Shown here in pieces: positions 464-34,604 of a DNA stretch of 64,000 nt. Every line of letters starts with the position of its first letter. The stretch's first letter is position 1. The DNA lies in contig NC_049979.1 of assembly GCF_000003815.2 (NCBI RefSeq), forward strand, positions 5,851,506 to 5,915,505. The letters run 5' to 3'. Source of the DNA: Branchiostoma floridae (taxonomy: Eukaryota > Chordata > Leptocardii > Amphioxiformes > Branchiostomatidae). The notes below the pieces were generated by a model. That model was not told the origin of the DNA, did not search any database, and worked only from the letters and a program-made list of their open reading frames with translations. Both the position numbers and the translations under genes were made by a program.

Positions 464-3400
464 CATGGGGGGTCTGGGTCTGTTCATGTCTCCGACCTTG
501 GGCGGGACCTCGGGCGGCGGGGGCTCGTCGTCGGGCGGCGGCTCGCTGTTCTCCTGCTCGGATACGTCCTGCTCTTCCTCCATGTCCTCACCGTTCGCCG
601 TGGGGACCACCCCGTTCGCTCTCTCCTTAGGGGGCAGCGCAGGGGGGGTGGTGTGGGCAGGGGGGGTACCGCCGTCTCTTCTCTCCTGCGTGGAGATGAT
701 TTCACTGTCTGATGCGCTCTTCTGCCCAGCCTGGGGTCAGACAGAGAACATCGTAATAGTCGCACAGCAACAAAGACATCACATGAAAGGTCGCACAGCA
801 ACAAAGACATGCAGTGAGTAACAAGTTTTAACCAGATGCTAGTATTGTGCTTAGGTGATAAAACAGAGCAGGAGGACAGACAGGGCTACCTTTGGAGCGC
901 CAGGCGGTCTGCCTGTACCGTTCGCTGGTAACGACGACCTGAAAGCAACACAAAAACCTGTCAGCCACTATTTCATTTTGTGTGCTAAAGCATCACAAGT
1001 AAGTCACAAAAACCTGTCAGCGTTTACTTTATTTTGTGTACAAAATAAATTGAAAAAAAAAAAAAATCACTGGTATGTCAGACAAACTAGACCCACAAAG
1101 ACATGGCTACTCACGACTGGTCTAACCTCTAACCTCTAACCTGCACTACCTACGCCATAATTCTGTACCTTCAACCTTTAACTTTGTGACAGAAAGGACA
1201 ATACTCACGACTGGTCTGTCCTCTAACCTCTAACCTTCACCACCTACGCCATCATTCTGTACCTTCAACCTTTAACCTTGTGACACAGAAAGGACAATAC
1301 TCACGACTGGTCTGTCCTCTAACCTATAACCTTCACCATCTCACCATAACGTTGTACCTTTAACCTTTTATCTTGTGACACACAGAGGACAATACTCACG
1401 ACTGGTCTGTCCCAGCTGCATCGGAGTACTCTAACGTTGTCGTGTGTCCTCTGGTGGAACAAACAAACAGGGGTTACAACAACATGAGCAACAGGAATGG
1501 ACAAGTTTCTTGGCCCAATGCCAGGTGAAAGAGTCGATCAGTGTGTGATTTTTCCGTGAATAGATCATCACTTTCACTTGCTCAGAGCCAGTGGACTTGC
1601 CCAACACTGATGTAACATACTATTGAGCACTTTAGAGCCTGTTAGAGTACAATCCTTCCTCCAGAAAGTACAGTTATGCTGGTATGTTACTAGAAGGTAC
1701 CAAGCCTGTCCCCACAAGACTTACACATAAAACCCTATATAATCACACAAAACCAGCCTGCTTTAGTGCTTGTTAAGTACATCCAACACAAATTTCATCT
1801 TAAGAAAGAACTGTAACAGGTTGTTTTCTTAGTTTTACCTTTCCCTTCATTCTCCGAAAAACAGCGGTGCTGTGGCATGGGTAGGTTCTTAGCATGGTTG
1901 GGTTCTGAGGGGGTCTTGGTATGGATGGTTCTGAGGGCGTCTGGGTGTAGATGGGCTCTGAGGGGGTCTTGGTATTAATGATTCTGGGGTTTTTTTGGTA
2001 TATATGGTTCTGAGGGGGTCTTGGTATTAATGATTCTGAGGGGGGTCTTGGTATATATGGTTCTGAGGGGGTCTTGGTGTGAATGGGTTCTGGAGGGGGG
2101 GTCTTGGTATTAATGATTCTGAGGGGGGTCTTGGTATATATGGTTCTGAGGGGGTCTTGGTGTGGATGGGTTCTGGAGGGAGGGTCTGGGCATGGGTGGG
2201 TTCTGGGGGGCTTGATATAGGTGGGTTCTGGGGGGGCTTGATATGGGTGGGTTCTGGGGGGCTTGATATGGGTGGGTTCTGAGGGTGGCTTGGCATGGGT
2301 GGGTTCTGAGGGGTGGTCTTGGTATGGTTGGGTTTTTAGGGGGGTCTTGGTCTGGGTTGGCTCTGGGGTGGTAATGAGTGGGAAGCTGTAATGGTGGTTT
2401 TGCGTGGCTCAGTGGAAACTTTAGAGCAGTCACATGGAATGGAGTAAACAAGGATAGCCCTCCACCATAGAATCTACACACCACAAAGAAACAAGGAGGC
2501 AGGAGTTACCGTCTATGGAGTTCTTCTTCAACGGATTTGATAAGACTCCTTCAGATGGACATAAGGAACAGAGAAAAGAGGTTGAGTTAGACAGAGTCGG
2601 GTGCTGTGATGATGTGAAGTGCAGCACTACAACAGCAGCTCAAGTCTGATGGTTCTACTGCAGCAGCATTGGTGACATGCACATTATATACAACTTCCAC
2701 CATGTCTATGTTTTACACAAGCATGATTGGACATCTCAATATCCTTCCACTGACACAAAAGGCTTGGCACAACATGATTTTGCTTTTAAGACCCACAAAA
2801 ATGCAAGCAGACAATAGAGGACTCCCAATGTAACCCAAGAGTAACCCTGTGGCCACATCAACTTAATTGATGATTCTCAGACTTGAATGAGAGAGTGAAT
2901 ACAGTAGAAGCCAGTTAATTGCACAACGGATAACTGCACACTTCTGTTAATTGCATGGAATCCCAAAGTCCTATAGTGATGTGGTCCAGCTGAATAATTT
3001 CGCTTTGTTACACTACTCGGATAATTGCAGAAAATGTGCTGGCAAGTGGGGAGTGCAATTAAACGGCTTCTACTGAATCTGCATTTAAGGTTTCCTTCCA
3101 ACCCTTTTTTTTTCAGCCCGCTTCTTGCTTGACTTTAGCTCTAAAATGCCAGACAAGCGACAAAATAAATCAGTGTGGCCAGACGACACCCCAGGAGCTG
3201 CCCAGCACCTGCCCCGAGCCCTGCGTCTGTAAACACTACTCACTTGCTACCGTCGATCTCCAGGACCGGTCTCCACGCGCCGGCAAACTCGTCGTCCTGA
3301 GGGGAGGGGAGTAACGGTTAGACATGTTCTCACTACAGCAGCTGCTGTACAAACTGTTGTACTACTGCTGTATATGCCATCAACACGTCATGTCTGTGTT

Positions 3401-6400: not shown

Positions 6401-7072
6401 TGACAGTCACCTGAACCCTATACCTTGCTCAGGTAACAGATCCATGACAAAAAAGCCCTTAAAATGAACAGGAATGGCCTAATCCATGCCTACCTGAATC
6501 ACTACAGGGGAGACGATGACATTAGAATTTCACCCACTAATACATGCGTTCCAATGGGAGAGTTGAGGAAACAAATATGCAATTATCTCAAGAATAAAAA
6601 GTTCAAGCCATACAAACTTACCTTCAAATGATAGCCTACTACATCCAGTCTCGGCAAATTCCTTGGCAAGAATTTCTATACGGCTAATCTTTTGATACAC
6701 CCCCCTGATTAGAGCCCTTGGATTGGCCCATTTGGCTGAAAACACCATTCTGGCGACGATACCACTATTTCAGGGGGGTGCGGAAACCCCCTCGATGGAG
6801 AAAGGTCATTTTTTACAACTAATTCTACCAGTGTAGGGTCTTTCCTACTGCAGCCACCCCCAAAATGCCCAGATTTCACATAAAATCCCACCAAGAAAGG
6901 CTTTTCAATGGTTTAAAGCCTTGTTTTTATTTGAGATCTCTCACCGTGGGCTCTAGGCGCCTGCGCTAATGCTTACGTCACCCCAGTACTTACTGTCTAT
7001 CTCTGATTTCGTCCGTTCTTTTCTGTCTTCCTTCTTCCGTGAAGAAATCCTCTGCGGAACTTCTAATGTTGG
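464..7072 (-). CDS. MAP4K linker exons 13-19 (Pro-rich and acidic)
   Basis: Exons: 7072-6994 ([20 protein letters not shown]), 5145-5087 ([20 protein letters not shown]), 3296-3244 ([18 protein letters not shown]), 2548-2510 ([13 protein letters not shown]), 1450-1400 ([17 protein letters not shown]), 938-890 ([16 protein letters not shown]), 730-464 ([12 protein letters not shown] onward, 89 codons, Pro-rich with PPALPPK and [15 protein letters not shown], possible SH3-binding motifs). All phases agree. The [10 protein letters not shown] and [11 protein letters not shown] blocks match MAP4K3, while the exon with WRPVLEIDG resembles the MAP4K5 linker. The last exon ends at a gtatga donor, so the frame continues left of the window. 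Confidence 0.9.
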
Positions 7073-10000
7073 CTGCAATTCAACAAACAAAAACTGACAT
7101 TAGTACTCCGTTGCCATGGTTACCTCAAAGCAGGAGCTGGGGTTAGCTAAGGTTTTTTCTATGGTATCAGTTGCTATGGCAATAGTAATGGTTGCTACGG
7201 TTCTGGTACGAGCTGGAGTTAGGTAAGGCTGGATTTCTATGGTAACGGTTGTTATAGCAAAAGTAATGGTTCCTATGGCAATACTAATGGTTGCTATGGC
7301 AATAGTAATGGTTGCTATGGTTACCTCTCCTCTATCCTCCTCGTCATCATGGTTCTGGTAGGAGCTGGGGTTGGGTAAGGCTGTGTTTCTATGGTAATGG
7401 TTGCTATGGCAATAGTAATGGTTGCTATGGCAATAGTAATGGTTGCTATGGCAATAGTAATGGTTGCTATGGTTACCTCTCCTCTATCCTCCTCATCCTC
7501 GTCGTCATGGTTCTGGTAGGAGCTGGGGTTAGAGGCCATCTCCAGCAAGTCCTTGCCGAGTCTGTGGGACAGCGGCTGCTGGAAGAACGGGTGCTGAAAA
7601 CAGCACAAGAACAGCATGGTTACAGCTAGGGTGCTAAAAACAGCACAAGAACAGCATGGTTACAGCCATGAAGTTTGACACATTATATATGTGACCCCAT
7701 CGCATAAAAAGTCAAAAGCCAGTCAAACAACCTCCCCACCCCACCCCAATACACACACTTGGTAAGGACATTGTCATTCCTCACCTGGATCATCTTCTCT
7801 GCTGTCGGCCTCTTCTTGGGGTTTTTCGTCAGGGCCAGTTTGACAAAGTTGTGGAAGTTGGGAGTCCTGAAATGAAGACAACACGAACATGTCAGTTTGA
7901 ACATCTAGACACTGACCAAAGTCTAACTTCTCACCACCACACATGTATAAACATTCCTCTCTGATGGCAGCAGGTACTGGTGAGAATCTAGACACGGACC
8001 AAAGTCTAACTTCTCACCACCACACAAATATCTGAGCAGCTTGATTCTGACCCAACCAAGATATATCCAAAAAAGACTGTCCAATTTCTGATGATGATTC
8101 TTACCTTTGCAGGAATCACTTACAGGTGGAAATGCACCACAGCAAAACATCTACAAAAATGGCTTAAGTTTCTGTTCAGCCAAGTGTAATGATTCGGCCC
8201 AGGTTTCGATGTCGCTTCATTTCTCAGGGATTGTGTGTGGGTCAGGTGACAATCTGATGGAATTCCTGGCGGGGCAACGATGCGAGTCGCCCGTCAGCTG
8301 TGGCGTCGGCCTGGCCGGAATGAACACCAGCCTTCCCGCGCTGGCTGCCAAGAGCTAACACCTCACAACAACAGCTACAACAACTTCAGGCTAGGGTTGC
8401 AGCAGCCGCATCCCAGACATTCCACACAAACCTCTCCACTTCAAACAAATCACACAGTTTCCCCCGGATATCACCCTCCTTCATGTCATGATGAACGCAT
8501 CATGTAGATGGGTACTCTGCTACTCACCATTTGGTTCTTGTCTTTAAGTTTGGGGGGGACGAAGCCACTTTTCGACATGAGGAACAGCACCCTGTGGACA
8601 GAAAGCAGGCAGTGAGAGAGTGCAGGAGATGTGTTTCTGTAACGTATCTGTGGGTGTGGCTTACAGCGGCCCAGTAAGTGGTCCGCATAACACACACCCC
8701 TCACATGCCAGGGGAGGGGGCAGTCTGGGCCACACACATCCTGCCACCAAGGAAACAAATAACGGGAATAACAAGGGAAGTAATGAGCAAAACAACAACA
8801 AACACAACATCAACGTCAACACAGACCTGCACCCACAGAGAACACAAGGACATAATATCATGTAGGAACTATGCGATAAGCCATTTACTACTTGGAGGTA
8901 TCATTACAGGGTTGCAAGGGTGCAATAACTTTAGGGTTGTAGCTGAATGCTTACAATGCCCCTCACAGTAACAGTATGTTTGCATTGACATAATGCAAAA
9001 CTGTCATATAACCTCTCAATATCCATCATGTCAAAATACTGCATTGCATGGAAGCCCAATACTATACACATACAGAACAGTAAGCCAAAAAGGCCTGTCT
9101 CCTGTCATCTTACAATTTGTGTCCATATAAAATATAACAAACATATGTCTATTTTATATAAACTATACTAAACTTAATTAACTACAACACATCATATTGT
9201 ACAGAAAACTGGCCCATGCCGACAGGTCACATTACATAAGTGTTATCTGATATGGATATGTGATGTGCCAAGTTGCGTTTCACGGCGTTCCGTTTGTGAT
9301 ATCATCATACCAACGGGCAGGGAGACGTCCCCTTCGGAGTCGTTCCAAGTCCGTGACCTTCATTCTCGTGTCAAGGTCACCTGAGTTAGCGCCAAACGGT
9401 TCCTCACCACATAAACAATCTCTCACAACCAAACCCATGTACTTCTTCCATTGTAAATACCCGGGAGTTTTCATGTCTCAGGTAACTCAAACAACAACTA
9501 ATCTTATGTATAATTATAATGTATATCAAATGATGTGAATTTGTTTATTTTTAAGTTAGTAATTACTGATTGTGTGGTAATTTTGTATTTCTGCCAAGGT
9601 TTGTCATACTGTGCTTTGATATTGAAAGTTCCAATCTCCTTATTCAGGATACAGCAAAGATGTTGAAATGGCTGGTAGAGAAAACTTAGCTGTCCGTGCA
9701 CTACTGTCAGCTGTGCTAACAGATTAATAGATAAATTCAACCCCCACAGAATATAGTTCAGTAGTGTTCCATTATCCATACACACAAAACACACAATACC
9801 ATACAGTGTTGCATTTTTGCATCTGCCTTGTGACAGAAACCTGCCTGTCGGGGGCGGAGGTCGCACATGGGGGTTACCTACCTCATGGGGTGGAGGTCGA
9901 ACATGGGGGGCTGCAGCTCCGCGAACTCGATTGCCGTGATCCCCACAGCCCATACGTCGCACTAAACACAACAAACAAACAAACAAACATCAGAATAATC

Positions 10001-13000
10001 CATACTCACTGTAACAGCGGTTATCCAGAATGTTGGTAGGTTTGGGAAGTTTCTTCACGCTGGGTCTGCAGTTTCTTTAACCTCAGTACACAGTTGGGCT
10101 TCTCTCAAGCCAGGAACACAGATAAGTACAAACTGCTCTGCTGCATCCCATCCTAACCCTAGTCTGTGTAACACAAACACTGCTGTCTGGGGCTGTAACT
10201 GGCGCCTCTAGGAGGCCGGTAGATGTTGGTCGGGCTGCTATAAGCGAGATTTAATCATGCTACCCGAACCCTAGCCCTAACCTGCTCCAGTCTTTCACAC
10301 TGAATCACTGTCTCACACCATACCTGAACTGTAACACTGCTTCAATCTATCACACAATACTCAAAGCCTGCTACTGGACCCACCCTTCTATAATCTGCGC
10401 ATGTATCCCACTGTCTCACACTATACCCAAACCCTAACCCTGCTTCAATCTATCACACCGTATCACACGGCCTCACACGTACCCAAACCCTAACCTCCAA
10501 CAGTCTATCACACCATATCACACTGTCTCACACCGTACCCAAAACCTATCCCTGCTCCAGTCTATCACACCGTATCCCACTGTCTCACACCGTACCCAAA
10601 CCCTAACCCTGCTATAATCTATCACACCGTATCACACGGCCTCACACCGTACCCAAACCCTATCCTTGCTCCAGTCTATCACACTGTGTTACACTGTCTC
10701 ACACCGTACCCAAACCCTAACCATGTTACAATCTATCACACCGCTTCACACAGTCTAACACCATACCCTAACCCTAACCCTGCTACAGGACCCCTCCCTC
10801 TATAGTCTGTGCACGTATCCCACCGTGCCCTAACCCTAGTTCTGCTCCAGTTTTTCACTCCCTATCACAGTCTCACACCCAAACCCTAACTCCGCTACAG
10901 GGCCATCCCACTGTGCCCTAACCCTGCTGTCACCAGCCCTCTACAGTCTGTGCACGTATCCCTCCATCCTGTCTCAGCACAAATTGGATTACAGCGCCGC
11001 ATCAGCTAATCAGTCTGAGCCAGCCCGGCTTTACACGCGAGCCGCCAAGGCTGTAATGACATTGCTATTGATCCACAATATTGGGCAGGGACCTACAATA
11101 TTCTTAAGGGAAGACTTCTGAACCCAAACAGCCTTTACCCAAAAGGACAGTGGCTCGTGGATATTGATTCACATGTTGGGCACAGACCCACAACAATTCT
11201 TGCACCAATCCTCGACAACATAAGAGGGGACTTAAATTAAACCCGAAACTGGCGAAAGACAGTGGCACTTTACTTATGAGTTATATGTTGTTCATGGGCA
11301 ATGGGGAGGGGCACAAAGCTGTGTGTTCTTTATTCCACCACCAGCAGAATATCTGCTGCACTTCCCCCTTCAGCGTAACGTGGATATCCTGGTGCATCCA
11401 TCCATTTTCAGCATCTGACATCCACTGGGCCCATGTGCAATTCATCAATACCTGCCCATGTCTCATTTCTCTGCGCCTGACAAATCCATAGAGACCAGCA
11501 ACAATCCATACTACAGCAGGGATGCACCAACTAGACACAATACAGACTCTACACAACAGTGCTATCACACACCATCAGACATGTTAAAAATGGTTCGGTG
11601 CCAGGCACAACTTTCATACAAAAGCATCAATGTCAAGCAGAAGGAAAAATTGTCATGGGAACGGGTGAACTCTACACTACCTGCTGTAACTATGGCAACA
11701 GATGAACTCTGACCTACCTGCTGATTGTAGCCACCTTTTCTCTCCACAGCAGCGACTTCTGGGGCCATCCTGACATCAGGAACAAAATGGGAGGTTAAAC
11801 ACCATGTCAGGTCAAAGGTTAAACACCATATGTCAGGTCAAAAGTTAAATACCATGTCAGGTCAAAGGTTAAACACCATGTCAGGTCAAAGGTTAAACAC
11901 CATGTAATTCACTTTGTCTTCTCAGTACCAAACTTTCCAGTCTGAGAACATTTAACTTCTTCTCAGAACTAAACGTTCACGGTGAATGAATTATTTGTTA
12001 CTGTCACCAAGTTGAATTATTTGTTATCGGTAATGATAAGTTCACATTACAGTGAAAACCGTGAAAATAAACGTACATTGAAAAAATCAGGAATTACAGC
12101 AATTGAATGTAGGGAAGAATGATGAAGTGAAGGAAGAAGCACGTACCAGTACGGAGTGCCGATGAAGGACTTGCGTTTGGCCATGGTGGCTGTGATCTGG
12201 GCCGACACACCGAAGTCAGCTGCAAAAAGGAAAGTGCTTAAGTGAAAAAATTCTGGAGCAAAAAATCTTGATATGTTTTATTCGATCTGGCAGGTACTTA
12301 CAGTAATTTTGAGTTGATGAACAAGAACACAAAACAGCAGTTTCTGTGTGTTGATACAAAAATTCGGGACATGAAACAAGCACATAAACATACGTAATTA
12401 TAAATATTACAACTAATTGTCTAATTGTGCCAATTTGTATTCTAAGACAAGTCTGAGCTTCTAACAGAACTGACGGCATATCTACAACAGCCAGTTCTGA
12501 GTTGACATTCAAAAGCACACACAACATGTTTTCAGGAGGTGTCGAGTGTCCAAGGTCATACAGCATATGCTTTACGCTTTGATAAGGAATTATGGGTGCC
12601 GACGTGTCAGCAACATTCCGCTTACCTAATTTGACGTTCCCCTCATCAGTTAACAGGATATTTGCGCCCTGTTGGAGAGAGGAACATGTTATCAATATAA
12701 CAGCAAATATGTTATTGAAGGCACCACGAATATGGGCTGGTATGGGGTTTTAAAATCCCCAACATTTGAGGTATTTGGAATAGAGCAATGTCATTCTTTA
12801 TTTATCTAATACGTATTCATTTATTGGTTTGGCTGTTCAGCACGCACATCCAGGGCTGCCCAACTACAAAGTACAAAGAGCTAGCCCTGCTGACAGAGAC
12901 AATAGAATTTATGGACCTGATGTTTGGACATGAGCTTGTCATTTCTAACATTTCCATTTGCAACAATTTTGCATTTGAACATGTGCGGCAGCAATGAGGA

Positions 13001-16000
13001 TTCACAGGGCAAAAAAACTTCTTGACCTTGGTAAAAAAAAATGGCAGCAGTTTTCATGGTTCTCTGCTTGTGCCCGATTACTGTAAATTCAGAAACTTTC
13101 ATGGTGGTTTAATGTTCGCGGTTTTCGCGGCGGCCGCTTCACCGCGAATTCAAAACCACCGCGAATATTTTTCCATAACAGTAAAAGACAACAGTGCATG
13201 TTGCTACCGCGAAATTAAAACCACCGCGAAAAGTCCATTTTCCCGCTACCGCGAAATTAAATCTCCGCTAACTTAAATGTATTACAGTACNNNNNNNNNN
13301 NNNNNNNNNNNNNNNNNNNNNNNNNNNNNNNNNNNNNNNNNNNNNNNNNNNNNNNNNNNNNNNNNNNNNNNNNNNNNNNNNNNNNNNNNNTATTTCCACA
13401 TCCAGACAACTGATCGGAAGCTTGTTACCAAGCACTTAATTGGTGTATAGAAATAGCATTAAAAATTTTAAATTTTGTGTTGTATTTTTGTTGGGCATTG
13501 TACTTACTGTGGTAGATGTCCTGCATGGACCCTCCTCCACAAAACTCCATACAGATCCACAGCTTGTCTCTCCTGTAACATAGCAAACAACTAACTTATC
13601 ATCTTATGATCACTAACTAGACATAACCAGTCCACAAAACTTCATACAGATCCACAGCTTGTCTCTCCCGTAAAATAGCAAACAGCTTACTTATTAACTT
13701 ATTGATCAATCAATCAATCAATTAACCTACAAACTAACATTAACCCTTCCACAAAACTCCATACAAATCCACAGCTTGTCTCTCCGGCAACATAGCAAAC
13801 AGCTAACTTATCAACTTATCATCATTAACCTACAAACTAACACTAACTAGCCATAACCAGTCCACAAAACTTCATACAGATCCATGGCTTGTCTCTCCCA
13901 CAAAATAAAAAAAACAGGAAACTTATCATCAATACCCTCAACCTAAAAAAAACACTAACTATCCAGACCTCCTGGTCACTACTACTAAACTGCTGCCTTT
14001 AGATAAAGTATAAACCTCCTGTCACCTATACACCTTTCTCACGCGGCGGCCATGATAGATCGAAGAAGAGGTCAATGAGGCAAACAGACAAAACTTATTT
14101 CTAAAATCAGGTCCCATTTATTTTTTCCCCAAACCACACAAATTTTCATGATTTAAGATAGAATAATAAATATTACAAGAAATGTTATGCACCAAAAGAT
14201 GTAGCAATTTAGAGTAGTGTAGACTAACCCCATAGTCCCTTAAGAGATGCAAAATAACAACATAATAATGCAAATTTTTAACGAATTTGCAGCCATTCAC
14301 TTATTGGTCGATTTCCTAATTGGCAGGCTACCATTGGTCGAACTGCTAATTATGATGGACAGCCTTTTGTTTGCCACATTGAACTCGTTTTAGATCTATC
14401 ATGGCCGCCGCGTGAGAAAGGTGTATACTGATAATAAAGCCCAACTGTCCTGTCTGATTGTTGCAGTTCCTACAGAAACAGCAAGGTGGAGCTGAGTATG
14501 AGAAGGCAGACAGCCTGGGTGCTGACATGACCATATATGGTACATGGTGCAGTTTTGGTATGGGTGCTGACATGACCATATTTGGTACATGGTGCAGTTT
14601 TGGTATGGGTGCTGACATGACGATATTTGGTACAGGGTGCAGAGGTGCTGACAGCTGTAGCTCCTCACACCTAACAGACCTGACCTTGATACACAAGTTT
14701 CCCTCCAGTGGAACACATGACTGACAGACCATTGTTAGGGACTGGGGACAGACTGCCTGTTTATGTAACCTACATCCCCCAAGTTCAAGTGCACTGAGAA
14801 CTGACACAAGACTGGTCTCAGCTGTAGGGACCTGTCAGCTGTAAGGTCTTGCCTGTAGGGACAGGTCTCGCCTGTCACCTATCACCTGTAAGGTCTCACC
14901 TGTAGGGACAGGTCTCACCTGTAGGGACAGGTCTCGCCTGTCACCTGTAAGGTCTCACCTGTAGGGACAGGTCTCGCCTATCACCTGTAAGGTCTCACCT
15001 GTAGGGACAGGTCTCGCCTGTCACCTATAAGGTCTCACCTGTAGGGAACTGTTACCTGTAAGGTCTCACCTGTAGGGAACTGTTACCTGTAAGGTCTCAC
15101 CTGTAAGGAACTGTTACCTGTAAGTCTCACCTGTAGGGAACTGTCACCTGTAAGGTCTCACCTGTAAGGTCTCGTCTGTAGGGTCTAACCTGTAAGACTC
15201 ACTGAGATAGCTGCCGAAGTAGGCTACGATGTTCAGGTGTTTACCTGTAAGTCTCACCTGAGATAACTGCACCTTTAAGACTCACCTGAGATAGCTGCCG
15301 AAGTAGGCCACGATGTTTATGTGTTTACATTCCTTCATCATGATGATCTCCTGCTGGATGATGGCAAAGTCGTCCCCTGGGCAACACAAACAAACAAACA
15401 AACATCAGCCTCACAGTAAACATCAACAACCCAAATCAAGTAATAATAAACTGTATTTACACCACATGCTTTTCTTGTACCATTCTGATGAGGCATCATT
15501 TTGATATTGCATTGTAGTGTACCAGCTGCCATAGTTTGAGCGTAGGGACACTGTCAGTCTGTGATTTAGTCTCCCTATGCTGTGATTTAGTCCCCCTATG
15601 CTGTGATTTAGTCCCCCTATGCTATGAATTAGATCCTATGCTGAGATTTAGTCCCCCTTTCCTGTGATTCGGACTGCCTCTGCTGTGATTAAAGCCCCCT
15701 ATGCTGTGATTTTGTCACCTATGCTGTGATTTAGTCCCCCTAAGTACTGTGATTTACAGTTGCCATGTTTACTTGGTGTGACAACCACCTGACAGGTGTC
15801 AATCAAAGTCAGAACATGAGGGTACCTTTTTAAGCTGAAGAGTACAAACAGCTGAGTGACAACCACCTGACAGTAAGCTGAGGACTGAAATATATCAAAG
15901 CCAGAAGTGGGGCACCTTTCTCCCAGCAAAATGAACATTGACCACCTGTCAAAAACAGCTGTCAATCAAAGCCAGAGGGGGAAGGCGCACCTTTTTCCCA

Positions 16001-19000: not shown

Positions 19001-22000
19001 GACTACCACACTAAATTATTTCAACTAGTGTAATGGTACTTCATAGTTTTATTGTTTTATAGCGTTTACTTGTGTATATTAATAATGCCAAACCAAATGT
19101 GAAATAATGTTGAAAGGACAATCCAAACTGACAAAAAAGTCTTTATAATTTTTGCTCTGAAAAGGACAAAAAAGTCCCCTCCCCCCCAATGCATGGATAC
19201 CTTAAGAATGCCAACATATCATATCATATCATTACTTTACATTTAAAAATCTCCTCACCATGGACAGGCCAAGACCCCCCTGCCCAAAATTGGTTACTCA
19301 ACTTCAGTACTAAATAAAACCCTAGCTGAGCCCTGCAGAACTCTCAGCTGAATCTGGTGTACTTGACAGTGAAGTGCACCTCTCTCCTGTTATCATGGCA
19401 TTCACACAACCATGAACTTCAACTTGGCTCTCTCCAGCAGAGAGGCTGCTCACATGTTCCAAGGACATAGTTGGTAAACAAGATGCTAAACCCTGCTTCC
19501 TGCTTAAGGTAAAAGATGTTCATCTGCATTGTAACCCTTAATGGTCTTCAGACATGTCCTCATGTAAAACACCCGCATGTCCTGAACCTCACCTCAAGGT
19601 GACCTCTGACCTCCTGTCTCCAGCTTATTCCAGCCTGTTCTGAACCCTCACCTCTCACTGACCTCTGACCTGAGGAGATCATTGTGAAACACCCCCTGCC
19701 TATCCCCAGGTTATTCCAGCCTGTCCTGAACCCTCACCTCAAGGTGACCTCTGACCTCATGTCCCCAGGTCATTCCAGCTTATCCTGAACCCTCACCTGC
19801 AAACCCGGTAAAACACCTTATGGCGTAACACTCCAGGTTTCTACTGAAGAGTGCAAGCTGCATTTATGCAATCCACACTTTTTGATAAGTGTGGTGGGTT
19901 CTTTTACTGTGCTTGAGGTGTGGCTCTCCTCAAACACGGGACCTCCCAGTACAACCTGCTCGGCTGTCAGAGTCTCAACACAAAACCTTCCTGTACAACC
20001 TGCACGGCTGTCAGACTCTACAAAACCTTCCTGTACAACCTGCTCGGCTTTCAGAGTCTTAACACAAAACCTTCCTGTACAACCTGCTCGGCTGTCAGAG
20101 TCTCAGCACAAAACCTTCCTGTACAACCTGCACGGCTGTCAGACTCTACAAAACCTTCCTGTACAACCTGCTCGGCTGTCAGAGTCTCAACACAAAACCT
20201 TCCTGTACAACCTGCTCGGCTGTCAGAGTCTCAACACAAAACCTTCCTGTACAACCTGCTCGGCTGTCAGAGTCCCAACACAAAACCTTCCTGTACAACC
20301 TGCTCGGCTGTCAGAGTCCCAACACAAAACCTTCCTGTACAACCTGCTCGGCTGTCAGACTCTCAACACAAAACCTTCCTGTACAACCTGCTCGGCTGTC
20401 AGAGTCCCAACACAAAACCTTCCTGTACAACCTGCAGTCTGTCAGCCTCAGACTCACCTGGTTCCAACTTGATGACTTTGATGGCTGCCAGCTCGTCTGT
20501 CTGCATGTTCCGAGCCTGGAGGCAAAAAAGCAAGACAGGTCAGTCTTGTCAGCATCTTAACATGGCATCTTAGATGTGTCTGTGTCTTAACATGGCATCT
20601 TAGACATGTCTGTGTCTTAACATGGCATCTCAGACATGTCTGTGTCTTAACATGGCATCTAAGATGTATCTGTGTCTTAACATAGCATCTCAGACATGTC
20701 TGTATCTTAACATGGCATCTCAGAAGTTAGAAGTATCTGTGTCTTGACGTGGCATCTTAGATATGGCATCACAGACGTTCTTTTATTACCTGGAATATGT
20801 AACTGATAACACAGAGACTACCGTAATTAAAAGGTATACAAAGTTACAAGGTGTTAATATTTTCCATTCATGACAATATTTCTACAGTTTGTAGTTTGTA
20901 GGTCGGTACTCGAGCCCAATTCTACAGCACTAGTAATATCTATCTGTAATATCATCAGACATTTATAAGGACAATTGAACATATCCAACACATCTAACAT
21001 AAAACAACATGGAAAGAAAATCAATAAAATGAACTGAGTCAGGGCTTTATTCATTGGACAAGCCTGCAGAGATGATATATGCTACACAATATTACACATC
21101 TACTTCTTCAAGTTTAAGTTCCACAGTCAACACAGTTTCATTGCTGCCATCCTCTCTCCAAAAGAAAAGGAAATTTTAAGGGCTATCAAAGCAGACTTGA
21201 CGTAAAGGTTTCTTTTCGTCTTTCATGTTAAATTTTACTTTGTTATATGTGTATAAGTCACATAAGCGTTCCTGGTACAGACAGCGGCAAGTTATCCTTT
21301 GAAAGGTAATAGAAAACTAATACCTCTATCTCCAAGTAATGCCTACAGCTACGTACCGATAGGTAGTAATCAGTAAATACCATTCATGTCATATGTGATG
21401 GCTACACAATGTTTCCTATAACTTATAAGTGATGCACACAACACAATAAATATTCAAGGATAGAACAGAATAACCCAGTAGAGCAAAAAGTCTGAAATGA
21501 GCATACATGAAATTTTTGTACAGTTTATAGAAAATAAAAGCTTTGTAATATTTTACTGCCATTGTGTTTTAGTGGTTTTCTTTTTCCATCAAGCATGTGC
21601 AAATTAGACAAAGCAAACAAACATGGTTCTCGCTAATAAAATAAATAAACATAGTTCTCAGTTGAAGAGGTGTTAAGAGAAGGAGTCAATGTCAACAGCA
21701 CTTGCCACAAAGTGAATGCACCGAGGTTATAACACCTGCTACATATGTTCATCTTAGTGTCATTCTTTTACCTCCAATAACATTTTCTGGCCATTATTGT
21801 GTGCCTGGGGTTCTACCCAGTAATAGTGTGAAGAAAGAAGTAGAATTTGCCACTTTTTTTGGTTGACAGCTGTTTAGTTGAAGCATTTAGGTCACAAGAA
21901 TAGCGGTACAATACTATAGTAATGGAGATCCTAATAAAACAACAGTGTCTTAGTCAAGCATACAGGTTCAGCGTCTTCTCCCTTCTTCATAATGCTGAAA

Positions 22001-25345: not shown

Positions 25346-25442
<97 letters not shown>

Positions 25443-25445
25443 GAA
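24838..25445 (+). mobile_element. 5'-truncated non-LTR retrotransposon (CR1/L2-like) 3' end
   Basis: The plus strand reads LERIQKRALRIILPSAYTCN and continues to FRSWLPATRNEVH and IPYYSTRLDTDL, then TAG at 25136-25138. This is the usual C terminus of reverse transcriptases of CR1/L2-type LINEs. The coding part is truncated at its 5' side. The 3' flank runs to a (TATATG)n tract and an AATAAA at about 25444. Confidence 0.75.
25330..25441. repeat. (TATATG)n microsatellite
   Basis: About 18 hexamers, in the 3' part of the LINE fragment. Confidence 0.92.
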
Positions 25446-25952
25446 TAAACCATGAATAAGAAATGGCCAGCAAAAGTATATTATGAGCACAAAAATGACG
25501 AAAAAAAGTCACAGAAAGCCTGCTATGGAGGCTAGCATTTGTAACGTCCATCATAGTGGAATAATTACTTACATTAAATGGTTGCACATGCCTTTCCTAT
25601 TACTCTATATAATATGACCTGGAAGCACATACCTCTAGCACACTAGGTGGTAAACAAAAATTACTAGATATATTCTATACAAGAAAATGCAACTCTTTGC
25701 TTTAAAAAATCATGCAACTACATACAACAGACCCAATCAACTTCCACCACCGTTAAAAAAAATCAAATTACACAATAAGTCTACAAACACCCAATACATT
25801 TCAAGCTGGTCTGAGGTCTACGAACTCTTGTTTTAAAGCATGTGCCCAGAGGTATGTTACCGTTGCGTGAGATGACTATTTTGAGCAAACAGAAGAACAG
25901 TGAATTTGCAAGGTTCCCCTTCCCCCTTTGCTTGACAGAAACGAGGGGCAAT

Positions 25953-26120
25953 CTCCAAGCAGATCTTACGGTGGCATAAGATAGCATCAAAAGCTGGGGC
26001 CGAAGGGTTTAAGCCGGCCACCGATTGGCTGATAATAGCCTTTGAGCGATGATGTTCTGCCGCAGATCTTCGGTGCATGGCTGGCTAAACTATCTTATGC
26101 CACCGTAAGATCTGCTTGGA
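25953..26120. mobile_element. Palindromic element with about 31-bp nearly perfect inverted ends
   Basis: TCCAAGCAGATCTTACGGTG (25953 onward) is repeated inverted at 26090-26120. It lies 28 bp 3' of the oxidase stop codon, so transcription would place a strong hairpin in the 3' UTR. Confidence 0.7.
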
Positions 26121-26147
26121 TATTAAACGACGGGCACTATCATCCTC

Positions 26148-28913
26148 TTATGCATCGCCGACATTTGACTTCAAAGGAACAGCATCCGCAGCAACGGTAA
26201 CCGCCGGTGGAGATGCGGCCTTCTTCCTGTTGATGGCGCAGTAGATCGCCGCTGCCAGGGTGGCGGCCATGACGACAGCTCCCCCCACAGCGGATAGGGC
26301 AATGACCTGCAGGTCAGGTGCTGTACAGGTGGTCTGCACGTCTGGTGGGCCTGTGGGCACAGATCATTGGTCTGAATGATGTCTAAAGCTAAGGGCACAA
26401 CCCACCGCACGTGCAATTTATCTGTACGTTTTTTGGGGGGGACGCCATGTATTTCTCAAAACGTTCAGGCTGTACAGGGCAGGCGCGTCGCCCGTACTGA
26501 CAAGTACGGGGGCGAATCCGCAGCCCGATGGCACACAAAGTTTTGCCTGCACGTAAAGTTCTACGGCGTGTCTGCGTGCTGCAAAGTCCGTCGATCGGAG
26601 GCGGTACTTATGACTTACGGATCCCAAAAGATTGCCCACCTTCTGTCTGACAGTCACGTAGACAGCACTTATTTACACGTACGGTGGGTTGTGCCCTTAG
26701 CTTAATCTATTCAATGAAAACCGTAGAAGCATACATCTTACATTGGCAAAACCTCACAGCCGGCGCATAGCGATGTTTAGAAAATGTACGTAGGCATCTT
26801 GCTTTTTTGCGCGTACAGTTCTCTTGCATCTCTGCAGAGGATGTCATTGATATATTTCTGCAGATTTGTAAAAGGCAGCGTCAAAGTGGAAATATTCTGA
26901 ATAAGGCGATCTGCATGATATAGACATCTACTGCACTGTATTCTCACATTTACATCATAATTTGATACTTTGAGCGGTTAAAAACAGCCCAGAGACAAGC
27001 AACTTGCACGAGGATATTCCTTATTATGGTACCCCCCCCCCCCAAAAAAAATAAGGACTTGATCTGGAATCCTTGTGCAACTCATTACTGTGCTGTTTTT
27101 AACGGCTCAATTTATGAAATAATGATGTCAATGTGCTAAGATAGTGCAGTAGATGTCAATATTATACAGACTGTCTTATTCAGAATATTTCCACTTTTAA
27201 CAATGTGATATTGCTTGGGTTGCCTGTGATGGCCTCAAAGGAATGGACCCAATAAATGTGAATGAAACGTCAAGATAACTCGTCTGACTCACTACTGCGT
27301 CAACATCTGCATGGAGCTTACCTGGAGGAACCGCAGGACCGCCTCCATCCAGAGCGCTCTGGTACTGCTCGGAGCTCCACGTGAAGTCGCCGCACGTCGG
27401 GAAGCCTGCGGGCGGGGGAGGGTGTCTGTCCGCCGCCTCCCGCAGCACCAGCGCCATCCCCTCGTTCATGTGCTGGTCGTTGTGGCAGTGCAGCATCCAG
27501 TGGCCGGGGTTGTCTGATCTGACAGGTGCATACACATCAAACGGGATGAAAGTTTACCTGCGATGTTGGTAGGATCTAGCCTGGGTACAATCTGGATAGT
27601 AGTTCGCTCCTATGTTTGCTTCTGCAGAGAAGCGACTGCAGTGTATATAGTGTATAATGAACGTCAGAGCTGGAAGCGACTGTACATAGTATATAATGAA
27701 CGCCGGAGCGAACTACTTTCCGGATGGTACCCAGGCTAGGTAGGATCCATTTAGATTGAATCCGAAGTATAGGGTCTACCTGAAGTAGTATTAAAATGAC
27801 TGAAATGTCTGGTCGTTGTGGCAGTGCAGCAACCAGTGGCCAGGGTTGTCTGATCTGACAGGTGCATACACATCAAATGGAGTGAAAGTTTGAATATAGT
27901 GACGTCGTAGAAGAGGTGGATTGCAAACTTTTTAAACCAATATCTTTCATCCCTTAACCCTTAACGCACTTCTCTCCAGCATGGATAGTATTGTTGCAAT
28001 TGCCCCTCACTCTTACGTATGAAAAGCGAAGTACTTTTATTACCTGAACCTGACCACAGTATACCCATTAGCTGGTACAAGGACGGTGTCCTTTAGTGGC
28101 GGGTTGATCAGGTTTAGCAGCGGCGGTCCATCCCGCCAGGTGGCGTCCGTGCACAGCCACAGGTCGTTCTTACATTTCACATCAGTGTTAGGCTGCATGT
28201 AGCGACCTGTTGAATGCAGTGAATTGTTGTAAAACGTGAATTCTTCATGTTTAAACTTTTACTACTAGTAGTTTTTGTCCCCTCTGAACGTAAAGCTGTA
28301 AATCTTATGAACGTTTTTAAGGCTGTAGGTAAAATGTGCGTTATGTACCTGTGTCTTGTTGTAACTGATGAAACCCATGGCGACGACCTGGAAGGCGTGT
28401 GCGTGGATGTGCACGGATATAGGTAACCCCGTGGATAAAGGTAAATTAGCCTGTACCTGTAGCTGGGGAAACCCATGGCAACGACCTGGAAGGCGTGTCC
28501 GTGAATGTGGACGGATAAAGGTAACCCCGCGGATAAAGGTAAGCTAGCGTGTACCTGTGGTCTTGTTGTAGCTGGGGTAACCCATAGCGACGACCTGGAA
28601 GGCGTGTCCGTGGATGTGGACGGATATAGGTAACCTCGCGGATAAAGATAAACTAGCATGTACCTGTGGTCTTGTTGTAGCTGGGGTAACCCATAGCGAC
28701 GACCTGGAAGGCGTGTCCGTGGATGTGGACGGATATAGGTAACCTCGCGGATAAAGATAAACTAGCATGTACCTGTGGTCTTGTTGTAGCTGGGGTAACC
28801 CATAGCGACGACCTGGAAGGCGTGTCCGTGGATGTGCACGGAGTGGTGCGTCTGGCTGGTGGGAGCGAAGGTGTTGTACATCACCAGCTGGATCGTCTGG
28901 TTGTAAGGAATGT
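26148..28913 (-). CDS. Oxidase exons 6-9: cupredoxin 3, type-1 copper site and membrane anchor
   Basis: Exon 28913-28773 holds HHSVHIHGHAFQVVAMGYPS. Exon 28206-28044 codes RYMQPNTDVKCKNDLWLCTD onward. Exon 27518-27322 holds NPGHWMLHCHNDQHMNEGM. Exon 26350-26148 codes the membrane helix and a 30-residue cytoplasmic tail ending SNVGDA and TAA. A near-perfect palindromic element lies just 3' of the stop (25953-26120), so it may be in the 3' UTR. Confidence 0.92.
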
Positions 28914-31900
28914 CTGAATACAAGGGGAGAACATGACATTAAAAGGTCGATAGAGACTTTCTACTTATATTTTCATCAGGTTGGTCGATCTGTACTCTCC
29001 AAGCAGAGGTTAGGCTCCGGCTGTTTTTTAACGTTATTTTCAGTCGTCTTAAAACCGGACACAGCAAGATAAAATACAAAATAGAAACCCCGATAAAAAC
29101 GAATAAAAATAACATTAAAAAACAGCCGGAGCCTACCCTCTGCTTGGAGAGTAGTCGATCTGGGTTATATAGGAGTTTTCTTTTACACAACCAGTAATGC
29201 TGATGTTGCGATGCCTATCAGACATCTTTCTCAGAGCTTCTGACTGTCCAGAGTTTTCCCTCTCGCCGCTACATGCATGAACCGGGAGACTAGTGGGGAT
29301 ACAAGCTTATCCACATTGGGAATGTGTTCTCGCAGCAAAAGCGCCACCTACATCGACCACATTTAGCGGCGAGAAGCAGAACTCCAGTTAGAAGCTCTGA
29401 GGAAGATGTCTGACAGACATCGAAACGTCAGCAGTGAGATAAACTGGTTAGAACTTTGTTAAGAACTTATGATTACCATGCATTGTTGTCCTGTTATTTT
29501 GTAACTATGCATATGCTATGTATTTCGGAGTGAATAGTGGTGAAGTGTGATGTACCAGGGTCTCCCGAAAATCAGGGATCTCGCCCTGAGTGAGCACACC
29601 TGGCTAAATAAATAAATGAAATGGTTGTGCAAAACAAAACTCCAAAGTGCAATATCCAGACCTATCATGTGTGTACACCGACAACCGCTCCGAAGACACA
29701 GTTCCTCGTCGCACGGCACCGTCGCCGCTGTGGTGTTCTGGTGAAGCGGCGCTGTGGGACCGATGAACCGCCGGCCGTTGACCGAAGACCCGATGGCGAA
29801 GTTGAAGTTCAAGAATATCTCGATGACGTCTGCGGCTTCCGTGGTGCGGGAATGTCCAGCGTATCTGTCAGTGGCCTTGGATTGTCCAGCCCCCTCTGAC
29901 GGCAACGCCAGCGCTTCCACATCATTCATGTTGATGCAAGACGTGTGCAGGTGTTCGGGATAGCCAGCAAACGGGCAGTTGAACACATGACACGGATTAT
30001 CGTTGGTGCAGCCCCGTTTAGTTGTGGTAGGATCCCGGTCTGCTGTCACGCCTTGGTATCGCAGGATCGCCCGCACCTCTTCTGTGACGTCGTCCGGAAC
30101 CACAACGACCTCATCGTACGGGTAGCATTTGGTGCAGTGGCCGACGCGCAGGGTCTCGGCCCGTACCCAGTACAGGTCCGGCCGGGCCGTTCCGTTTATC
30201 CGGACATCGTAGCTCTCCCCTGGGTAGATGATGACGGACTGGACTCTCCGCGGTGTCATGTCGAACCCATCGCTGGCTGTCACCGTCAGCTCATGCTGGT
30301 CCACGGAGAACCGGAACGGGTAGTCCGGACCGACATGGATGATCCGGAAGTTGCCGTGCCCTCCGGAGGGGACCATGAACGTGCTGAGCGGCGCTCTGTT
30401 GTCTCCGAACCGACCGCGCCCGTTGATAAGGGCTGAGTTGAACACTCGACTGGAGACTTTGACGCCATCGTGAGAGAACGGGCGCTCGTAGGCACCTGAA
30501 AAAAGCACAATATATATATCTTAAACAATGTTCACCGTATCATACCTTGAAGATGCCATAAGAATTCAGGTCATTTACCAGTATGAAATTCTAGCATTTT
30601 CTCATTCATTATGCAAATGACGTAATTGCATAATTTTCATTATCTTTCTCGCTTGCATGTGTCAAGCTTACAGGTTCGCAAAATCCTAGTGAAGCGGGTT
30701 TGTTAAATTTCCTCATTTATTATGCAGATTAGGTTTTTAATTACATAATTATGATGTAATTATATCAAACATCATCTTGGCCTCACTTCTTTCAAAGTCT
30801 GAAACTGAACCGGCTCCGCTTACAAAAATCCGCTAGGTGGCTACACTCTACCACTCATAAAGCACGACAGTAGCATGTCCAGATCTCAAACCCCGGAAGT
30901 TCCTCTGCAGTACCATAGCAAGCCGCTAGGGGCCAAAACTCTAATCGTTTTGAGATCTCTTAAACTTGATGAAGACCTACCCACATACCACATACTGAAT
31001 ATCAAGGCACGCCTTCGAGTTTTATGTTGTCCATTTACACACACACACACACACACACACTACCGAAATTACTAGTATAACTTGATGAAGACCTACCCAC
31101 ATACTGAATATCAAGACAATCCATCCACGTCTTCGAGAGTTATGTTGTCCATTTACACACACACACACAAACACACACACACACTATCGAAATATTAGTA
31201 TAACTTTCTAGCGAAGGTAACTAGCGAAGGCAATCACCCAGCATATACTCTCCATCGCCGGCGTGTTCCAAGCCGAACATGTTTGAAATCCAATATGGCG
31301 TAGCCTCGATGTGGTACCAGTCGTGGAGGATCACGGGAATCGATGGCACGATGGGACTCCTGGTTAAAACAAGGACCGAATCGAACATAAGTATACATGG
31401 AATTGTCAGTAACACCACTTAAGGTATGCAAACCCGATGACGACGGGGACAAAAGCTTTCCGTCCCTTGTTGTGCCAATTGCAACAAGATTGGTAATAAA
31501 AACATTATTGCAATGGCAACGATTGTCATTTACAGGAGGTGAACATAAGACAAACGAAACCTGAAAAATTAATTCACAGGATGTTCCTGATAATGAAATT
31601 CTTTTGTTTTTACTGTCAACAGGATATTCCTGTCATGTAGATATTTTTTCTGCGGGTTCCGAGACAACATCTAGCTTGTCTTGGTAATTGAAGAGGGGTA
31701 TGAAGGGTATAGAGCAGTCTATATACAAGTACAAACTTGATGTAGTTATGACCCCTTCCTAAAAATAAGGACATTAAATGTTATACTTGTGACGGAACAG
31801 TATCTAACAACATTGTAACAGACACACACTGTTCTAGAAAACAGGTACACATAAAGAATTCCCTGAGGATTGTAACCACAGAGATAGCAATCTTCTTTGG

Positions 31901-34604
31901 TTACAAACCGTTAGCTAGTCTGGACTAACTAGCTCTTGAGTGATGTCTACCTCTTTCTCTTGTTACCAACTTTCTGCAGTGGTCTTTCTGTAATGTGACT
32001 GCCCCTACTTTTTTGACTGGCACAACACTATGTTTGTCTTTCTGAGTTAGAAGAAAATGTGTATTTTTCTATAAAACTCAACGGAATGTGATGAATTGTG
32101 CAACTTCTACCTATACACAACTTATCAAGTGCTCCATCTGGACAACACCTGTGGTTGACTGTCCAGTTATCTAGGACAAATGCCTGGGGGAGCTTGCATG
32201 ACCCGAGTTCCTGCCATTGAAATTCCTCCGGACTAACTTCTCACATTGCAAACATGCCTGTGGTCTGGCATTCCTGTGGAAAAATGCCTGTGTAATTCCT
32301 AGAATTTTTGCAGACTGAACACAATGATATACCATTTGACATGCCCCTGAGGCGTCGCCAAAAAAGCGCGTAAACTGCCAGACAGGGCACCGTTTAATGT
32401 CCTACGGTGGCATATGATCATAAGCTGGCAAAAGTGTGCAGCCGGAAAGAATTCCAGAAAATCACATGTAACGTTACCAGTAATCATGATAGAGTCGCTA
32501 GTAACTTTCAAGCTTGTAAGTTAAGGCCATATGCATGTTGATTTGATTTTATGGATAACATCCACTGGGAACCCCAAACCTGATGCAAGTGTGCGAATTA
32601 AAAAAAAAAAGGTGCTTTCATTATGACGTCGACGTGGTCTGGAAGGTTCAACAACGGACTGAACACACAGTATGGTATACCGAACAGTAGATTCTTAATT
32701 TTTCTTCTTTCACATCGTCTTCTTTGACATGACATTACTCTACGTTTTCCTAAATTGTCCTTGCGATATACGGCATATATCTGCCCATTTTCCAGCTGCT
32801 TTGTACCATTACTATATGTTTGAAAACTTTTTCCGTCTTACCTGGCCCTGTGCACGATGAACGCGCCGAACAGTCCGTCCTCTCGCTGCGTGCGGAGGTG
32901 CGAGTGGTAAAAATGCGTCCCGGCAGGCTCTGCGTTGAAACGATAGACGAAGCTCTCGCGGGGCATGATGGGACATTGTGTGACGTAGGGCACGCCATCC
33001 ATGTAGGGCGTGCTGCGCATGTGCAGACCGTGCCAGTGGATGCCTGTGGCCTCGGTTAGCAGTTTATTCGTTACTTTAACGACGACCTGGGTAGATATTA
33101 ATTAACATAACAGCGCAAGTCAGTAAGTGTAGTGTAGTCGAATTTATAACGTAGTAAAGCTTTAATGTCATTCTCTGATCCACATTACTGCATCTAGCCT
33201 CAAAGGAGCATGGATATGCAATAAACTTATCATTGTCCATGGCTATGATAATGACCGTCTTAAAGCTAGAAGCCAATCCACGATCCTAACGTTTGAAAAT
33301 AGTTTGAACTAAATAAAATACCAACAATAAATAAAATACCAACAATCTCCCTAACCTGTGCCCCCTCCACGACTTCAATGGTAGGTCCCGGGAACATGTC
33401 GTTGACCGTGATGACGTTCCTCTGAACCCCGTCAGTGGTAATGACCTCCTCCATGGGCACGAGAGTTCCGTTCACATTCTCCTTCCCAGGGTGGGCGGGG
33501 TTTCCCAACGGACTGAAGAGCTCAAGGCGTCCGTCATCACGGAGTTTCACCTGTAACGTATAACATGACGTCATTGAGATTTACCTGTAACGGTACGTCA
33601 CGGAGTTTCACCTGTGACATTACGTCATGGAGTTAACCAGTAAAATGACGTCATTGATATTTACCTGTAACTTGTCGTCATTGACATTCACCTGTAACAT
33701 GTCGTCATTGAGATTTACCCGTAACATGACGTCATAGAGATTTACCTGTAACATGCCGTTATTGAGATGTCGATTCACCTTTAACGTTCCGTCACTGAGA
33801 TTTACCTGTCCATGCTGATGAAAGATGTGGGGTTGTGGTGTGATTACATATTTCAAAAGAATCCTTCTTTTTTCCATGTCGATCTCCCTCTTTTTTCTCC
33901 CCACTGTCTTCCCCCTCTATTTCTCTCTCTACAGCCTCCCCCTGAATAATCTCTATCCAGTCCCTCCCTCCTCTCTCTTATCGCTATCTCAAAGTCATTC
34001 TGTCTCTTGCTCCTTTCTCCTGTCTCCCTCCTTTCTCCATCCTCTACTCTGTCTCCTCTCGTTTTCTCTCTCCCTTTCCCCTAACTTCATGCTTACCTCT
34101 CTCTCTGTTCTCTCTCTCCACTTTCTCCCCACCCTCTCCTCTCTCTCTGCACTCTCTCTCACTTTGCACTCTAATCTCTCTGTTCTCTCTCTCTCCACTC
34201 TCCCTCCACTCTCCTCTCTCTCTCCACTCTTTTGCTCCTCTCTCTTCCCTCTCTCTCTTTCTCCCTCTCCTCTTTTATAAAGATGACGACAAAGCGATTG
34301 GGTTGCAATGCTTAGATGAGGAGCTAAATGTTCTGGAGACGTTTGTATGGTGTCGGCATTTTCCGCTAAATTACTTCACCATAACTCACTTGACAGCAAA
34401 GGTTTGAAACAAAAATTCACTTACAGAGTTGGTATCCCTGCGCCCGTTGAGGTTCCGTGTGTGAGTCATGGTCTTGGTCCGCCTGATGACGAGGGAAAAG
34501 TGGCAGACGCTGTCGGTGCAGAGCTGGGAGAGAACGCTCTGGGCCGCGACAAGCGCCGACATGATGAGAATGATGATGGTTCTCGGGGCCAGGTGCCTCG
34601 TCAT
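26148..34604 (-). CDS. Laccase-like multicopper oxidase, membrane-anchored, complete (759 aa)
   Basis: Three-cupredoxin oxidase that couples one-electron substrate oxidation to reduction of O2 to water; substrate unknown (phenols, iron and ascorbate are all used in the family). Exons: 34604-34425, 33550-33356, 33086-32842, 31359-31238, 30495-29662, 28913-28773, 28206-28044, 27518-27322, 26350-26148. All are GT-AG, all phases agree, and the total is 2280 nt including TAA. Residues 1-22 form a hydrophobic signal peptide (IIILIMSALVAA). Copper ligands: HWHG 142-145, HFYHSH 183-188, HHSVHIHGH 548-556, HCHNDQHMNEGM 637-648, the last with Met as the axial type-1 ligand. A membrane helix at about 708-728 is followed by NRKK, so the catalytic part should face outside. 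This is not hephaestin/ceruloplasmin, which has six domains. Confidence 0.93.
26383..26706. mobile_element. Harbinger-like MITE, TAA target duplication
   Basis: Inverted ends AGCTAAGGGCACAACCCACC (from about 26388) and complement to about 26701. Flanked by TAA on both sides. Located in the last intron of the oxidase gene, about 35 bp from the final exon. A trinucleotide TWA target is typical of PIF/Harbinger. Confidence 0.7.
26883..27198. mobile_element. Foldback element, AAGTGGAAATATTCTGAATA ends
   Basis: The two halves are inverted copies over most of their length around a C/A homopolymer centre at about 27030. A diverged half-copy lies at about 36490-36600. Non-coding; in the intron between oxidase exons 8 and 9. 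Confidence 0.65.
27577..27738. mobile_element. Second copy of the TAGCCTGGGTAC element, 9-bp target duplication
   Basis: The ends match the element at 4619, including AGTAGTTCGCTCC inside the left end. Flanked by GGTAGGATC at 27568-27576 and 27739-27747. 162 bp, in intron 7 of the oxidase gene. Confidence 0.8.
27805..27885 (-). repeat. Duplicate of the exon 27518-27322 5' end and acceptor
   Basis: Repeats gcacctgtcag|ATCAGACAACCC and the following codons (SDNPGHWLLHCHNDQ), including two T1/T3 copper histidines. It breaks off after GACCAGAC. The acceptor AG is intact, about 330 bp upstream of the true exon in the transcript. Confidence 0.8.
28335..28850 (-). repeat. Five-copy repeat of the oxidase exon 6 3' half and donor
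   Basis: Period 109 bp (98 in one copy). Exon-like ends at 28773 (real), 28664, 28555, 28457 and 28349. Each copy keeps codons for about HIHGHAFQVVAMGYPSYNKTTG and an intact acag|gtac donor. In frame, the real donor is followed at once by a TAG. Confidence 0.9.
28993..29153. mobile_element. Palindromic element with TACTCTCCAAGCAGAGG ends, 9-bp target duplication
   Basis: Inverted ends of about 38 bp (28993-29031 and 29115-29153). Flanked by GTCGATCTG on both sides (28984-28992 and 29154-29162). 161 bp, in the intron between oxidase exons 5 and 6. Different termini from the TAGCC family but the same duplication length. Confidence 0.78.
29165..29460. mobile_element. Foldback element with AGACATC...GATGTCT arms
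   Basis: Inverted arms contain AGACATCTTTCTCAGAGCTTCT (about 29220-29241) and its complement at about 29390-29415. A related palindrome is at 38508-38660. In an oxidase intron. Confidence 0.5.
29520..29625 (+). mobile_element. Probable LINE 3' tail
   Basis: TACCAGGGTCTCCCGAAAAT and TCGCCCTGAGTGAGCACACC followed by an A-rich AATAAATAAATG tail, like CR1-type 3' ends. Similar tails at about 36412-36450 and 52065-52130 are less clear. It touches the 3' side of oxidase exon 5. Confidence 0.35.
29662..31359 (-). CDS. Oxidase exons 4-5: cupredoxin 2
   Basis: Exon 31359-31238 codes SPIVPSIPVILHDWYHIEAT and continues to GEYMLG. DWYH is a common second-domain landmark of animal laccases. The 834-nt exon 30495-29662 covers the rest of domain 2 and the lead-in to domain 3. 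It includes a Cys-rich stretch ending CDEELCLRSGCRCTHMI that joins IPYN of the next exon, as in animal laccase-like enzymes. Confidence 0.9.
31030..31190. repeat. Two (CA)n tracts in a duplicated segment of about 120 bp
   Basis: CTTGATGAAGACCTACCCAC at about 30966 and 31080, each followed by TATGTTGTCCATTTACACAC and a (CA)n run. Confidence 0.8.
32842..33550 (-). CDS. Oxidase exons 2-3: cupredoxin 1 with HWHG and HSH copper ligands
   Basis: Exon 33550-33356 codes 65 residues beginning VKLRDDGRLELFSPLG and containing FPGPTIEV, the typical start of the first cupredoxin domain in laccases. Exon 33086-32842 carries HWHGLHMRST, the DGVPYVTQCPI segment and GTHFYHSH, which supply four histidines of the type 2/3 copper cluster. 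The acceptor of exon 2 is repeated in a 27-bp minisatellite upstream. Confidence 0.92.
33541..33815 (-). repeat. 27-bp minisatellite carrying acceptor copies of oxidase exon 2
   Basis: About nine units, minus strand acag|GTRAAT.TCAATGACG, derived from the exon start acag|GTGAAACTCCGTGATG. Many copies keep AG; two have lost it. TGACGTCA (CRE-like palindrome) recurs. Because the unit is nine codons, an open frame of LQVNLNDDM-type repeats arises (33904-33620). Confidence 0.85.
33880..34275. repeat. CT-rich polypyrimidine tract
   Basis: About 400 bp of TCTCTCTCC-type sequence in oxidase intron 1. Frames in it are artefacts. Confidence 0.85.
34425..34604 (-). CDS. Oxidase exon 1: signal peptide
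   Basis: Starts MTRHLAPRTIIILIMSALVA; 60 codons in phase 0. A second, diverged copy of the start region with its own ATG (35052) lies upstream at about 35023-35146. The 34604 start is chosen because only it continues through a full signal peptide to a gtaagt donor. Confidence 0.85.

Follow-up and report, generated by a model that had tools for sequence, protein, structure and literature searches.

Why do minisatellites in two genes of Branchiostoma floridae take in the ends of exons together with their splice sites, and do the splice sites themselves provoke them? The window considered here, a stretch of 64,000 nucleotides (G000:C1:5851506-5915505) on a 35.3 Mb contig of a genome searched as 513.4 Mb in 431 contigs, had been described in an initial annotation as carrying such arrays at nine exons, with chance placement judged unlikely and a general process triggered at splice sites put forward as their source. 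The precedent named there, border-spanning minisatellites named mirages at the amphioxus Adh locus, is correct, since mirages have been reported in Adh3 and later in globin genes, TnC and PGBD5 (PMC3087553, PMC3902484). As argued below, the arrays of the window are amphioxus mirages that probably result from ordinary tandem duplication in a repeat-rich stretch, combined with selection against copies that damage the exon.

Mirages have been described in two globin genes, BflGb6 and BflGb9, in a paper that cites Adh3 and two further papers (PMC3087553), and a PGBD5 mirage was added in another that cites TnC (PMC3902484). According to the former, mirages leave regular splicing undisturbed, are unstable in length, as other minisatellites are, and have been proposed as a source of introns. 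The arrays of the window resemble them in that an exon-intron border, at one end of the exon or the other, is duplicated in tandem; published units measure 10-72 bp, 60, 108 or ~150-160 bp, and keep the AG or GT in many copies (PMC3087553, PMC3902484). They differ from the published cases in that several occur in one gene, that they are weighed here against the intronic background, and that one unit carries a MITE-like terminal repeat. Intron gain by internal tandem duplication (Rogers model; Gao and Lynch), discussed or referenced in PMC3087553, likewise involves segments carrying splice signals, whereas the borders duplicated here belong to existing introns. In the literature searched, no genome-wide test of mirage enrichment at borders was found, and passages of the huntingtin paper PMC2206037 mention tandem repeats but not border duplication.

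Host genes and their surroundings

Both mirage-bearing genes lie on the minus strand. The first, a MAP4K3-like kinase gene (464..23101), has 17 exons placed by tblastn, splice borders and frames read between exons, and continues past the low end of the window. It matches human MAP4K3 exon by exon (tblastn, with a human sequence as the probe), except that human residues ~103-138, in a region containing a 100-N gap (13291-13390), and likewise residues ~352-392, are without a placed exon. The second is a laccase-type multicopper oxidase gene (27322..34604) of 8 exons, hand-placed from open frames and splice sites, with Pfam matches above the cut-off to Cu-oxidase, Cu-oxidase_3 and, at 27200-27553, Cu-oxidase_2; its matches in PDB are laccases, and no relative of the oxidase exon was found on viral contigs. 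Together the two genes offer 48 predicted splice borders with GT and AG, some of the oxidase donors being weak, or one border per ~620 bp. TRF coverage is 16.2% in the kinase gene, 14.0% in the oxidase gene and 15% for the window. With the kinase and the oxidase, two more amphioxus genes are known to carry duplicated splice borders.

A third gene was looked for at 36-64 kb, where nine ORFs gave no Pfam match above the family's cut-off; the same holds for a tenth ORF, at 22.5-23.2 kb. Two strong predicted exons on the minus strand, 45330-45202 and 56265-56195, may belong to such a gene; an ORF covering the first likewise gives no Pfam match over the cut-off, and the second comes from a splice scan and lacks homology support. 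A long open frame rich in aspartate and glutamate, at 41618-42673 on the minus strand, lies on TCATCC-type repeats and has no Pfam match, and a 39-bp array of ~25 copies at 60027-61029 has long open frames on either strand.

Border copies and a mobile-element end

A border was counted as copied by BLAST if a probe across it found, within 1200 bp on either side, a second copy that itself spans the border. By this criterion 7/48 borders are copied, namely kinase donors 15286, 7477 and 1400, kinase acceptor 13573, oxidase donor 28773 and oxidase acceptors 33551 and 27519, with the extra copies on the intron side in all seven. TRF gives 6/48, adding kinase acceptor 7594 and missing oxidase acceptors 33551 and 27519, so that the union holds eight. 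Seven of the nine exons originally listed thus have a copied splice border by BLAST. Two do not. Kinase exon 9961-9882 has a 23-bp segment repeated in the intron at 91%, but the repeated part leaves out the splice site. In oxidase exon 34604-34425 it is the end with the ATG that has a copy, 454 bp off, and donor 34425 is uncopied.

In the kinase gene, the donor mirage of exon 1450-1400 (1108..1412, minus strand, as for all arrays that follow) has a 94-bp unit with 13 exon bases and three decoy donors, all with GT, and that of exon 7593-7477 (7199..7532) has a 152-bp unit with ~55 exon bases, its nearest decoy being identical to the real donor across 24 bp. The acceptor of the latter exon adjoins two 40-bp copies (7589..7666) that include 5 exon bases and an intact decoy AG, and are called by TRF only. 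Exon 13572-13508 carries an acceptor mirage (13536..13965) with three upstream copies, the acceptor AG missing in each, and exon 15376-15286 a donor mirage with a degenerate extension (14891..15298); within these last coordinates fall 11 of the 14 CAGGTGAG motifs found on the gene strand over the whole kinase gene span. In the oxidase gene, exon 28913-28773 (exon 6) has a donor mirage with a 109-bp unit (28341..28842). Exon 33550-33356 has a degenerate 27-bp array (33540..33768) that ends 10 bp from the acceptor, and a single copy of the exon start at 33611, 61 bp upstream. At exon 27518-27322 (exon 8), acceptor and exon start recur as one 88-bp copy, 336 bp upstream (27468..27891), which TRF does not call, and a dispersed repeat (27577-27744) separates the two border copies.

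Arrays that merely abut exons, also pointed out in the initial annotation, are real. Next to kinase exon 20515-20458, a 44-bp array (19941..20435) starts in the intron 22 bp from the donor, with BLAST similarity from 20449, and kinase exon 11769-11718 has a 24-bp array (11792..11905) whose near edge is 22 bp upstream of its acceptor; neither array spans the border. A further TRF edge lies 12 bp from 56195.

What are these units made of? The intron part of the oxidase exon-6 unit, 44 bases long, contains a dispersed MITE-like terminal repeat. A genome search with this part returned at least 43 matches, two being the array itself and at least 41 lying elsewhere, with 40 of 88 candidates scored. 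The family has a terminal repeat of ~40 bp (28341-28774 in the window). At six loci (L001, L019, L020, L030, L031 and L035) it is found as inverted pairs, their outer ends separated by 194-225 bp, and TAA precedes it in 17/22 copies outside the window, as at MITE ends. The exon-6 unit is bounded by one TCCGT in the exon (28842) and another that closes the repeat (28733), 109 bp and hence exactly one unit apart, and the similarity of the copies to the exon starts at TCCGT; the same 5-bp direct repeat at both ends, with the onset of similarity there, indicates that the segment was duplicated between a pair of short direct repeats.

Such a fusion of an exon end to a terminal repeat, joined at a motif common to both, would also be expected if pieces of transposable elements beside a border, whether MITE terminal repeats or small elements, seeded arrays whose unit then took in the exon end. 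The dispersed repeat that separates the border copies of oxidase exon 8 fits this as well, yet as an account of the arrays it is unlikely: the array 13536-13965 at kinase exon 13572-13508 has itself as its sole match in the genome search, and kinase arrays 1108-1412, 7199-7532, 14891-15298 and 7589-7666, as well as oxidase 33540-33810, have no match among the sampled loci. A general transposon origin, considered as a candidate, thus holds for parts of two oxidase cases and fails for the array at kinase exon 13572-13508.

Introners, which are transposon-derived introns, offer a partial likeness, a mobile-element end lying 5 bp inside the intron from the oxidase exon 6 donor. In an introner the whole intron is a dispersed element with splice sites at its ends; here the element was not seen at the far end of the oxidase intron when this was read by eye, and the one terminal repeat seen lies near the donor.

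Borders against their intronic background

Are borders copied more often than the introns around them? Near copies within 1200 bp exist for roughly one in four intronic positions of the two window genes. Spanning copies were found by BLAST at 7/48 borders, as against 125/497 intronic control positions (odds ratio 0.51, CI 0.22-1.16, P 0.11, the interval being too narrow because control points are correlated), and a stricter probe gave 4/48 borders and 124/600 intronic positions. Coverage by distance from the border falls beside the exon, from 0.28 (TRF) or 0.37 (BLAST) at 201-300 bp to 0.13 at 1-10 bp. When 22 arrays are placed at random, a mean of 7.3 borders is spanned if exon overlap is unlimited (P(>=6) = 0.74, P(>=9) = 0.31) and of 5.1 if at most 75 exon bases are allowed (P(>=6) = 0.40, P(>=9) = 0.09); a null allowing no exon overlap yields 0 spanned borders by construction and tests nothing. 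Dense arrays and dense borders therefore give border spanning at the observed level, and the initial claim that chance placement is unlikely does not survive comparison with the intron background or with random placement.

The position of the arrays relative to exons tells a different story, on a sample of 21-22 arrays and with distance thresholds picked post hoc. Overlapping an exon or lying within 25 bp of one are 11/21 arrays, against 5.3-6.1 expected when arrays are placed within their own introns with 50-75 bp of overlap allowed (P 0.001-0.007), and 2.9 when exon overlap is forbidden; within 50 bp of an exon lie 13/22, against 5.6-6.9 expected (P 0.001-0.004). Arrays that actually overlap an exon number 6/21, against 3.6-4.6 expected (P 0.11-0.29). 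Uniform placement does not explain this pile-up beside exons. In the window, then, comparison with intron controls gives a divided answer, with no enrichment of borders in spanning copies and a clustering of array edges near exons.

This clustering, together with the occurrence of mirages in several amphioxus genes, is what favours the trigger suggested initially, in which splice borders would provoke tandem duplication, for example via R-loops or spliceosome-coupled transcription. The border counts and the near-exon coverage give such a trigger no support, and the coding-strand G-skew of seven border arrays is mixed, from -0.26 to +0.53, which speaks against an R-loop signature. If splice borders provoked duplication, moreover, copied borders would be expected in other genes of the same genome, and the gene sets sampled there hold none among their predicted borders. 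Triggering by splice sites, which we consider quite improbable, is left open by the near-exon clustering and is not supported by the border counts.

The comparison loci comprised 27 of 10 kb fetched by place (one all N) and six of the loci with matches to the MITE-like repeat; the 19 contigs sampled measure 17-35 Mb each. Exons were predicted there with a finder trained on the window's own exons, whose raw predictions are expected to be about half false (68 on real against 33 on reversed sequence). Counting borders on raw ab initio exons was rejected: at score 24, arrays span 22/134 real and 18/66 reversed borders, mostly at false exons inside arrays. Given raw predictions of this kind, gene sets chosen by eye as protein-like were used instead, 17 in 14 loci (L008, L023 and L027 hold two each). 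The first batch comprises ten sets in nine loci, 7/10 with a Pfam match, one of these (Spt20_SEP) below the cut-off, and the second seven sets in five loci, selected without Pfam.

Copied borders in these 17 sets number 0/159 predicted (66 + 93), a count from which the choice by eye and a filter removing predicted exons more than half inside arrays could hide mirages. The breadth ascribed to the phenomenon in the initial annotation does not extend to them. Intronic copying in the same sets is rarer than in the window, at 28/640 positions (14/360 + 14/280), and the border-to-intron ratio of the window, scaled to these loci, predicts ~4 copied borders where none was seen. The window genes sit in a repeat-rich neighbourhood, and some of the sampled loci are not repeat-poor either, TRF coverage ranging from 0.3% to 16% across the 14 loci, against 15% in the window. 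At score 18, 7/211 predicted exons in 33 loci are spanned by an array at one end only, and by eye none of these is like an ordinary non-repetitive coding exon. A long array at 4766-8015 of L021 yields false exon predictions every 351 bp, with no gene recognised there.

That the arrays are assembly artefacts is highly improbable, since point changes and small indels distinguish their copies and other mirages are backed by trace data, RT-PCR or re-sequencing (PMC3087553, PMC3902484), even with a 100-N gap inside the kinase gene and one mirage aberrantly assembled in a genome draft (PMC3087553).

How, then, would ordinary tandem duplication produce mirages? Short direct repeats would give rise to tandem duplications by slippage or unequal exchange, and some of these duplications would straddle borders by chance, as is to be expected where intronic copying is frequent and a border occurs every ~620 bp. 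A straddling duplication would be close to neutral, because the exon-adjacent copy retains the real splice site and the frame while the extra copies become intronic decoys, presumably unused. Selection would purge duplications that extend further into the coding part of the exon or divert splicing to a decoy.

Decoy splice sites and direction of choice

The fate of the decoys differs between the two kinds of border. Among decoys aligned by BLAST, GT is kept in 12/12 donors, one of them only with a one-base shift, and AG in 2/5 acceptors (Fisher P 0.015); counting the decoy at 7633 that TRF alone calls, with its AG intact, brings the acceptor tally to 3/6. The three lost AGs, now CG, GG and GG, all come from one array (13536-13965), and the asymmetry is accordingly offered as a lead, not claimed as established. 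In three donor mirages a frame continued beyond the real donor runs into a stop, at +2, +2 and +9; the decoy of the fourth, at +152, changes the reading frame.

A possible and more specific account, put forward tentatively, is that mirages arise in bursts in minisatellite-rich neighbourhoods and are then filtered by the direction of splice-site choice. Donor decoys downstream of the exon would be harmless, as the exon-nearest donor wins, and would stay intact, whereas acceptor decoys upstream would be met first and be disarmed by loss of the AG; the arrays beside exons would be the trace of this filter.

Taken together, border copying has here been measured against the intronic background, and found to be common in the repeat-rich introns of these two genes and absent from the gene sets sampled elsewhere. 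If the directional filter is true, amphioxus mirages would be a natural experiment on splice-site competition, and if the decoy asymmetry holds genome-wide, they would offer a test of how the spliceosome chooses among near-identical sites, as well as of one proposed route of intron gain.
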